From assembly GCA_018267275.1 (NCBI GenBank), contig JAFDYV010000007.1, positions 186,001 to 250,000 on the forward strand: a stretch of 64,000 nt of DNA, read 5' to 3'. Positions 18,349-18,989 of this stretch are shown here, piece by piece. A program made the translations under genes and the position numbers. Origin of the DNA: Bacteroidota bacterium. GTDB taxonomy: Bacteria; Bacteroidota; Bacteroidia; Cytophagales; Cyclobacteriaceae. Position 1 is the stretch's first letter; each line of letters opens with the position of its first letter. Below the pieces are notes generated by a model, which saw only the letters and a program-made list of their open reading frames with translations, did not search any database and was not told the origin of the DNA.

Positions 18349-18398
18349 CCGCAGTTTTAATAGGTTTTCTTATTATTGCGGCCTGAAATTTTGATTTT

Positions 18399-18440
18399 CG
18401 AGGTGTAGCGTCCCGCTAAAAGCGGGATTAGCGCATCACG
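18399..18440 (+). pseudogene. 5'-half tRNA-Pro remnant with hairpin inserted in the D-loop
   Basis: CGAGGTGTAGCG and TTAGCGCATCACG are identical to the 5' part of the intact tRNA-Pro 50 bases downstream, but the D-loop is replaced by TCCCGCTAAAAGCGGGA, a perfect 7-bp hairpin. The copy stops in the 5' strand of the anticodon stem, so it cannot form a tRNA. It is a truncated duplicate. Confidence 0.85.
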
Positions 18441-18448
18441 AAAAACAT

Positions 18449-18523
18449 CGAGGTGTAGCGCAGCCCGGTTAGCGCATCACGTTAGGGACGTGGAGGCCGG
18501 AGGTTCGAATCCTCTCACCTCGA
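18449..18523 (+). tRNA. tRNA-Pro, anticodon AGG
   Basis: Complete cloverleaf of 75 bases. Acceptor CGAGGTG/CACCTCG with discriminator A; D-stem GCGC/GCGC; anticodon stem TCACG/CGTGG around loop TTAGGGA, giving anticodon AGG at 18484-18486 with the G37 typical of tRNA-Pro; variable loop AGGCC; T-arm GGAGG-TTCGAAT-CCTCT. CCA is not encoded. A34 is unusual, since most bacterial proline tRNAs read with U34, G34 or C34. The degenerate downstream copy has TTTGGGA (anticodon TGG), suggesting a T-to-A change in this copy. Confidence 0.9.
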
Positions 18524-18524
18524 C

Positions 18525-18551
18525 AAAGCCTCACAAGTTAAGTGAGGCTTT
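18525..18551 (+). terminator. terminator after tRNA-Pro
   Basis: AAAGCCTCAC and GTGAGGCTTT form a perfect 10-bp stem with a 7-base loop directly behind the tRNA, followed by TGTCTTTAT. It would end the tRNA transcript before the GIY-YIG ORF, whose ATG lies 9 bases beyond. Confidence 0.75.
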
Positions 18552-18559
18552 GTCTTTAT

Positions 18560-18820
18560 ATGGCGTTCACAGTTTATGCCTTGTTTAGCAAATCGACTCG
18601 AAAATTTTACCGCGGCCAAACCGATGATTTCAATTTGCGTCTTTCACGGCATAATGCAGGTATCGTCAACTCAACAAAAAACGGTGTGCCTTGGGTGAGC
18701 ATATGGACTTTAAATGTTGACACCAGAACGGAGGCATTGGCGCTCGAGCGTAGAATAAAAAAGCGCGGTATTTCTCGCTATCTAAATGACATCGGATTTG
18801 TGGTTCAAATCGGGGTGTAG
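18560..18820 (+). CDS. small GIY-YIG nuclease
   Basis: 86 residues from ATG 18560; a GTG at 18542 falls inside the terminator stem and is less likely. The single GIY-YIG domain is complete: VYALFS (GIY strand), FYRGQT (YIG strand), RLSRHN (catalytic Arg), KNGVPW and ALALERRIKKR (catalytic Glu). Such UvrC-like stand-alone nucleases are frequent in Bacteroidota, often beside tRNA genes. The stop codon lies within a GGGGTGTAGC sequence that is itself the start of a tRNA-Pro remnant, so the gene runs directly into that remnant. A degraded second copy starts at 18915. Confidence 0.9.
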   Translation: MAFTVYALFSKSTRKFYRGQTDDFNLRLSRHNAGIVNSTKNGVPWVSIWTLNVDTRTEALALERRIKKRGISRYLNDIGFVVQIGV

Positions 18821-18870
18821 CATCCGGCAGGATTTGGGACGTGGAGGCCGACTCGCTTCGGGCTGGGTCA
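18811..18870 (+). pseudogene. degenerate tRNA-Pro remnant
   Basis: CGGGGTGTAGC at the front and TTTGGGACGTGGAGGCCG in the middle match a tRNA-Pro acceptor, anticodon loop (TGG) and variable region, but the D-arm is collapsed to ATCCGGCAGGAT and the T-arm is replaced by GACTCGCTTCGGGCTGGGTC. No cloverleaf can form. It overlaps the last 10 bases of the nuclease gene. Confidence 0.8.
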
Positions 18871-18914
18871 TCTTTGCAAAACCTCACTTATTTGTGGGAC
18901 TTTGTTGTTTTATC

Positions 18915-18989
18915 ATGGCGTTTTCTATTTATGTCTTGTTTAGTAAGTCAGCCTACAAATTCTGAAGTGGCCAGACGGATTATTTGACC
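18915..18989 (+). pseudogene. GIY-YIG nuclease remnant
   Basis: Translation gives MAFSIYVLFSKSAYKF, stop, SGQTDYL, clearly the N-terminus of the intact nuclease upstream, with TGA (18963-18965) in place of the Tyr codon of the YIG strand. The rest of the gene is missing. It is preceded at about 18878-18904 by a decayed copy of the tRNA terminator (AACCTCAC...GTGGGACTTT), so the order tRNA, hairpin, nuclease is repeated. Confidence 0.85.

Follow-up and report, generated by a model that had tools for sequence, protein, structure and literature searches.

In the window analyzed here (the whole stretch of 64,000 nucleotides from a Bacteroidota bacterium), an intact tRNA-Pro(AGG) gene lies on the forward strand at positions 18449-18524 (ARAGORN; Rfam, 62 bits). 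It is followed on the same strand by a terminator-like hairpin at 18525-18551 (AAAGCCTCAC..GTGAGGCTTT), recognized by its sequence and by its alignment with a decayed second copy, and by an intact gene at 18560-18820 encoding an 86-residue, single-domain GIY-YIG protein (ATG at 18560, TAG at 18818-18820; PF01541, E=1e-10). The same three parts then recur, again on the forward strand, in decayed form: a tRNA-Pro copy at 18811-18870 whose clear homology stops near 18850, a hairpin at 18878-18904 that aligns with 18525-18552, and a nuclease copy at 18915-18989 (MAFSIYVLFSKSAYKF*SGQTDYLT) retaining 63% amino acid identity over 24 residues and interrupted by one in-frame TGA at 18963-18965. Upstream of the intact tRNA there is a forward-strand tRNA-Pro 5' remnant at 18399-18440, made of bases 1-12 and 21-33. 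The eight D-arm bases 13-20 are replaced in it by a 17-bp perfect palindrome, TCCCGCTAAAAGCGGGA, at 18411-18427 (no strand assigned), and palindrome-interrupted 5' remnants of a like kind were found at tRNA-Pro in relatives. A promoter-like sequence of the tRNA-Pro gene, TATTATTGC (18372-18380, forward strand), was inferred only by comparison with relatives, where boxes resembling TATTATTGC and TATACTTGC are also found 5' of the empty orthologous tRNA-Pro genes.

The original prediction, made from the sequence alone, had proposed the order tRNA-Pro, hairpin and GIY-YIG gene followed by a decayed repeat of all three, and this order held when examined with ARAGORN, Rfam, PF01541 and alignments against shuffled sequences. 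The repeat of terminator plus nuclease (18525-18630 against 18878-18985) scored 57, the best of 500 shuffles reaching 28; the upstream 5' remnant, which had also been predicted, gave a local alignment score of 35 with tRNA-Pro against 26 for the best of 1000 dinucleotide shuffles. The downstream tRNA remnant was the weakest of the aligned parts (31 versus 28 in shuffles), and the best tRNA-Pro-like match elsewhere in the window scored 22. As the scores exceeded those of the shuffles for every part, chance similarity of the repeats was ruled out. The in-frame TGA of the nuclease remnant was likewise confirmed, as was the claim that the nuclease stop codon lies inside the next tRNA remnant: its TAG corresponds to bases 8-10 of the tRNA copy starting at 18811. 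The span given for the nuclease, 18449-18820, held only in part, since this range takes in the tRNA and the coding sequence is restricted to 18560-18820; the palindrome of the 5' remnant had gone unmentioned. The presence of the nuclease stop codon inside the decayed tRNA led us to infer that this copy was once an intact downstream tRNA.

AGG, with A34, is an unusual anticodon for a bacterial tRNA-Pro. It was observed in the window and in relatives (L135-L161). The possibility that this gene is an aberrant, mutated tRNA was ruled out, as tRNA-Pro(AGG) is a core single-copy gene present in nearly all genomes of the genus.

The window nuclease keeps all its catalytic residues (Y6, Y17/G19, R27, H31 and E63); across the family Y6, Y17, G19, H31 and E63 are invariant and R27 is nearly so. 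An AlphaFold model (pLDDT 93) predicts one GIY-YIG domain, and the nearest solved proteins by sequence and fold were those of UPF0213 (1zg2, 1ywl), then Slx1, with I-TevI and UvrC giving weaker matches. A search of PHROG with the window protein returned no match, and a Leu-type relative matched phage homing endonuclease families weakly. Selection on the nuclease is purifying: close pairs showed dN/dS values of 0.08-0.17, and two noisier within-genome pairs gave 0.35 and 0.49.

The association with tRNA genes is not peculiar to this locus. The genome that harbors the window contains nine PF01541 matches, two of them in long proteins and seven in stand-alone genes, and five of these seven adjoin a same-strand tRNA within about 100 bp. 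The hosts are Pro(AGG), Ser(GGA), with one gene on each side, His(GTG) and Asp(GTC). With only 39 tRNA matches across 4.25 Mb, chance alone would place about 0.9% of genes at 300 bp or less from a tRNA. We then surveyed 39 genomes of relatives, 24 of them of the same genus, and examined 103 places. In the nuclease tree, 24 proteins with frames of roughly 100-140 residues formed one tRNA-less clade (SH-aLRT 98). Outside this clade, 65 of 78 places had a same-strand tRNA within 700 bp, eight were near contig ends and five had none, so that adjacency was 65/78, whereas none of the 24 sister-clade members was adjacent (Fisher p=3e-14).

A wider search of GTDB genomes was carried out as a DNA-pattern scan with five Leu/Arg-type proteins, blind to tRNAs, adjacency being judged on fetched loci. 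Of the 80 loci recovered, 72 had a tRNA at a distance of 300 bp or less, in every case on the strand of the nuclease. Among them are Flavobacteriia, Bacteroidales, Chitinophagales-type and Saprospirales members of the Bacteroidota, as well as Ignavibacteria, Patescibacteria, Neomarinimicrobiota and records labelled Planctomycetota. Cultivated carriers of the cassette include Maribacter caenipelagi (L235) and Leeuwenhoekiella polynyae (L259). As the queries derived from proteins linked to tRNAs, and as related loci do not count as independent, the proportion of 72/80 is valid for this clade and not for all GIY-YIG genes. Moreover, a profile spanning every isotype proved too heterogeneous for scanning DNA, and with Leu/Arg-type queries other isotypes are under-sampled.

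Several rules of the architecture emerged from these loci. Joining relatives and GTDB loci, the nuclease lay on the tRNA strand in 126 of 126 tRNA-adjacent cases. At the 67 loci with a split fragment a strict polarity was observed: when the intact tRNA was downstream, the fragment was a 5' piece in 37 of 37 cases and never reached the 3' end; when it was upstream, the fragment reached the 3' end in 23 of 30 and only three began at base 1. In the 62 cases with the tRNA downstream, 39 nuclease frames terminated within the intact tRNA, most commonly at the TAG of bases 8-10 or 21-23. Tandem tRNA/nuclease units had periods of 323-373 bp, the repeat unit overall measuring about 295-373 bp. At a tRNA-Val locus (L072, genome G016) we observed about four tandem, nuclease-free, 80-bp palindrome-bearing 5' remnants upstream of the intact tRNA-Val, together with nuclease repeats downstream.

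The same clade of nucleases is found at about twenty types of tRNA, and the nuclease tree tracks the tRNA isotype rather than the genome: 34 isotype changes were needed versus a shuffled mean of 58, and none of 200 shuffles was as low. Many inner forks of this tree are weak because the protein is short.

Occupied and unoccupied alleles were both found. An orthologue of the gene upstream of tRNA-Pro in the window (57-61% identity) precedes an unoccupied tRNA-Pro in six genomes (G009, G010, G011, G012, G013 and G024). Among about 24 genomes of the genus a nuclease was present at tRNA-Pro(AGG) only in G000, G019 and G022, and those of G000 and G019 belong to different lineages. At a tRNA-Pro/tRNA-Arg(CCT) pair, the Arg(CCT) site is empty in G003, whereas in G001, beside the same tRNA-Pro, it is occupied by a unit of 295 bp beginning with tRNA base 1. 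The original prediction had included among its checks an enrichment of such nucleases beside tRNA genes, partial tRNA copies at their far ends and empty sites in relatives; all three were found, and neither of the outcomes named as refuting it, a lack of enrichment or an unrelated origin of the two copies, occurred.

The Gly(GCC) cassette has been laterally exchanged between genomes. In G018 and G024 it shares 94% identity over 486 bp, the conserved block being confined to the cassette and the tRNA operon and the flanks having no similarity. The nuclease dS was 0.22-0.25 versus 1.5-1.8 for UvrC, and for the pair G013-G024 these values were 0.07 versus 0.37. This is the single clear recent case, and it rests on one background gene. 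A search of phages and plasmids revealed only distant relatives, and the four inspected had no nearby tRNA; a phage or plasmid origin was therefore set aside. Relatives on viral contigs were few and distant, and one of six was beside a tRNA. This one, on an IMG/VR contig (L305), adjoins tRNA-Arg(ACG) and has its stop codon inside the tRNA; the contig could be bacterial and mis-binned, or it could be a genuine vehicle.

The interruption of tRNA remnants by palindromes was also recurrent. Among 67 remnants with an insert, 47 form a stem of 6 bp or more, as against 7.5% of random windows, and the inserts are GC-rich (0.69 versus 0.41). Most of them lie in the D loop (TA|GA) or the T loop (TTC|GA), others in the anticodon loop, and 33 entered without the loss of any tRNA base. 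The exact 17-mer TCCCGCTAAAAGCGGGA has only three further copies in the genome, all within tRNA-Leu(TAA) remnants. The commonest palindrome is a 20-mer, CCTGCCTGCCGGCAGGCAGG, found in Bacteroidota and in one Uhrbacteria record. In other Bacteroidota, 15 of the 16 copies examined were away from tRNAs and, because most copies are not at tRNAs, CCTGCCTGCCGGCAGGCAGG is probably a repeat in its own right that ends up in tRNA remnants as well. A palindrome acting as a tRNA-only element was thus ruled out for CCTGCCTGCCGGCAGGCAGG; TCCCGCTAAAAGCGGGA remains exclusive to tRNA remnants in this genome. At three loci without a tRNA (L268, L274 and L280) CCTGCCTGCCGGCAGGCAGG was seen near the tip of longer imperfect hairpins, positions that might hint at a small palindromic repeat inserting into hairpin loops.

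In the genome that harbors the window, nuclease-free partial tRNA copies, each with a palindrome, flank the Leu(TAA), Thr(TGT) and Met(CAT) genes. Antisense partial copies were not seen, the best antisense score being 25 versus 35-90 for the sense copies at these loci. Three remnants surround tRNA-Leu(TAA) (L022, C9:365650-366100), the anticodon arm of each being exactly swapped for TCCCGCTAAAAGCGGGA; we read this locus, with its duplicated terminator and no nuclease, as a nuclease-free scar array. A solo palindrome-bearing 5' piece of tRNA-Thr(TGT) was observed at L014 (C13:326240) and a solo 3' piece of tRNA-Met(CAT), also with a palindrome, at L020 (C14:265200), both without a nuclease. At L004 (C1:79609-79683) a tRNA called by ARAGORN, as tRNA-Ala(CGC), and by Rfam is a tRNA-Asp remnant in which a palindrome replaces the anticodon arm.

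The strand and polarity rules, the stop codon within the tRNA, the clustering by isotype, the empty sites, the tandem arrays and the scars are thus established. The explanation we favor, to which we assign a probability of roughly 0.7, is a minimal homing-like mobile element living in tRNA genes; DNA cleavage, its site and homing by recombination are inferred. In this view, the element would be made up of a gene for the single-domain GIY-YIG endonuclease and a portion of a tRNA gene. Its enzyme would cleave empty tRNA genes of the matching isotype. With an occupied copy as template, repair of the break would then bring in the nuclease along with tRNA sequence; a complete tRNA would be restored every time and an incomplete one left over, either a 5' piece (restoration downstream) or a 3' piece (restoration upstream). 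Repeated rounds would lead to tandem arrays, and loss of the nuclease to scars. Within this model, we infer that the window represents a late stage, with a 5' scar, an intact tRNA, an intact nuclease, a decayed tRNA and a decayed nuclease. The palindrome would probably destroy the site of the enzyme in the leftover tRNA copy; the location of the TTC|GA hot spot within the T-loop target of the phage nuclease SegB suggests, but does not show, such a role.

Some observations weigh against the homing reading. The protein comprises only the catalytic domain, and because it is a single domain without a DNA-binding tail, with UPF0213 and the structure-specific Slx1 as its nearest relatives, site-specific cutting is not obvious. 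The intact neighboring tRNA would be a target as well, unless recognition requires flanking sequence, and its escape is unexplained. Clustering by isotype could come in part from vertical inheritance. Finally, the evidence is sequence-based, without biochemistry, and no intercellular vehicle was identified among the distant phage and plasmid relatives.

The closest known parallel in architecture is SegB of phages T4 and T6, a GIY-YIG homing endonuclease that stands free in the tRNA region (PMC13096335; see PMC2988022 for a review). T6 SegB cleaves tRNA genes at the motif RAWTSGAAC, which on the opposite strand reads GTTCSAWTY, the T-loop sequence. It drives the tandem amplification of tRNA-Tyr plus segB, in which the 5' end of the tRNA shares microhomology with the 3' end of segB (PMC13096335). 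Both systems share a GIY-YIG domain, a position beside tRNA genes of many isotypes and tandem tRNA-plus-nuclease repeats, and the cleavage motif of SegB matches the T loop, one of the interruption hot spots in the bacterial cassettes. However, SegB is phage-borne and resides in multi-tRNA clusters, whereas the bacterial cassettes are chromosomal, encode 80-95 residues, contain a restored tRNA and a polar fragment, and have their stop codon in the tRNA. SegB has more than a catalytic domain. The features expected of a Seg-like free-standing homing endonuclease were met, namely an intact catalytic domain, occupied and empty alleles, and lateral spread beyond host divergence (one case); those of the T4 Seg family proper, whose phage-borne members have a DNA-binding region in addition to the catalytic one, were not, the protein having 86 residues and one domain. 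In our judgement, therefore, the architecture works like a free-standing homing element, yet it lies outside the T4 Seg family as tested.

Among chromosomal proteins, the nuclease satisfies the definition of a UPF0213 or single-domain GIY-YIG protein, that of being closest to 1zg2/1ywl. UPF0213 (YazA/YhbQ-type) gives the best sequence and fold match and is also single-domain, but its solved members are not described as tRNA-linked. A clade of GIY-YIG proteins of 103-114 residues in the same genus, never at tRNAs, resembles ordinary chromosomal genes. The structure-specific endonuclease Slx1 is the second-best fold and profile match, but it lacks mobility; Slx1 is a eukaryotic enzyme that contains a RING domain and is partnered by Slx4. 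A tRNA gene that stays functional is also the site of integrative elements and of group I introns, the former carrying a tRNA fragment as well; in contrast, the 295-373-bp unit has room for the nuclease only. A group I or II intron homing endonuclease was ruled out, as Rfam scans showed tRNA only and no self-splicing intron. Nor were the criteria of a site-specific integrative element, an integrase gene and att-type repeats, fulfilled, the unit containing only the nuclease gene and a tRNA piece. No description of a chromosomal tRNA/GIY-YIG association was found in the open-access literature searched; subscription papers and preprints were not covered and a prior mention is not excluded.

Two interpretations had been put forward in the original prediction: either a homing-like element whose site is a tRNA gene, or a nuclease gene that hitchhikes when tRNAs duplicate. 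According to the latter, tandem tRNA duplication by unequal recombination would passively carry a nearby nuclease that is not causal. In support of this idea, nuclease-free tandem units and palindrome-bearing remnants exist, both in the genome studied (Leu-TAA, Thr-TGT and Met-CAT) and at Pro in G020 and G006, but these are simply read as scars. Hitchhiking does not readily account for one nuclease clade at about twenty tRNA types, always on the tRNA strand, when the sister GIY-YIG clade is never so placed, nor for the conserved catalytic residues and the low dN/dS. The fixed strand, the fidelity of nuclease lineages to isotype, the frames ending in the tRNA's own TAG and the laterally exchanged cassette led us to favor the homing-like reading, which is supported over passive hitchhiking, the nuclease activity and the homing step being inferred; hitchhiking we regard as unlikely.

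A second alternative is a vertically inherited, host-serving nuclease similar to Slx1 or UPF0213 that resides beside tRNAs and processes branched DNA or adjusts tRNA copy number. Its closest folds are indeed nucleases of branched DNA, it is under purifying selection and isotype-specific lineages are common to a genus. However, the patchy occupancy of tRNA-Pro(AGG), in three of about 24 genus genomes and by two nuclease lineages, argues against it, and the decay, the scars and the exchange of the Gly cassette better fit a mobile element; this alternative is improbable as well. Least likely of all is a palindrome-driven process, in which a structure-specific nuclease cuts the cruciforms that GC-rich palindromes form within tRNA-copy loops, amplification and spread being the consequences of these breaks: the stem-forming, GC-rich inserts in the D, T and anticodon loops, often without loss of tRNA bases, and the similarity to Slx1 agree with it, but the commonest palindrome is mostly found away from tRNAs.

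A bolder version of the homing-like reading, which we put forward only as a possibility, is that these cassettes of 300-370 bp represent an unnamed class of minimal autonomous mobile element, present in several bacterial phyla, that invades and rebuilds a tRNA, takes its stop codon from it and employs a GC-rich palindrome in the tRNA copy left over as a working part, either for self-immunity or as a cruciform substrate for an Slx1-like nuclease.

Transfer RNA genes are essential and nearly identical between cells, and a selfish nuclease that targets them must therefore repair the damage it causes. The logic of such a repair can be read in dozens of independent loci, in the polarity of the fragments, the tRNA-borne stop codons, the tandem arrays and the scars. 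Palindrome-bearing tRNA remnants give rise to false tRNA annotations and, if true, the homing-like reading would explain partial tRNA copies and spurious tRNA calls, such as the false tRNA-Ala(CGC) at the Asp locus, as well as the 'GIY-YIG nuclease family' genes scattered near tRNA loci of Bacteroidota and Patescibacteria. Furthermore, this reading would extend the SegB mechanism of tRNA amplification from phages to bacterial chromosomes, including those of cultivable species.
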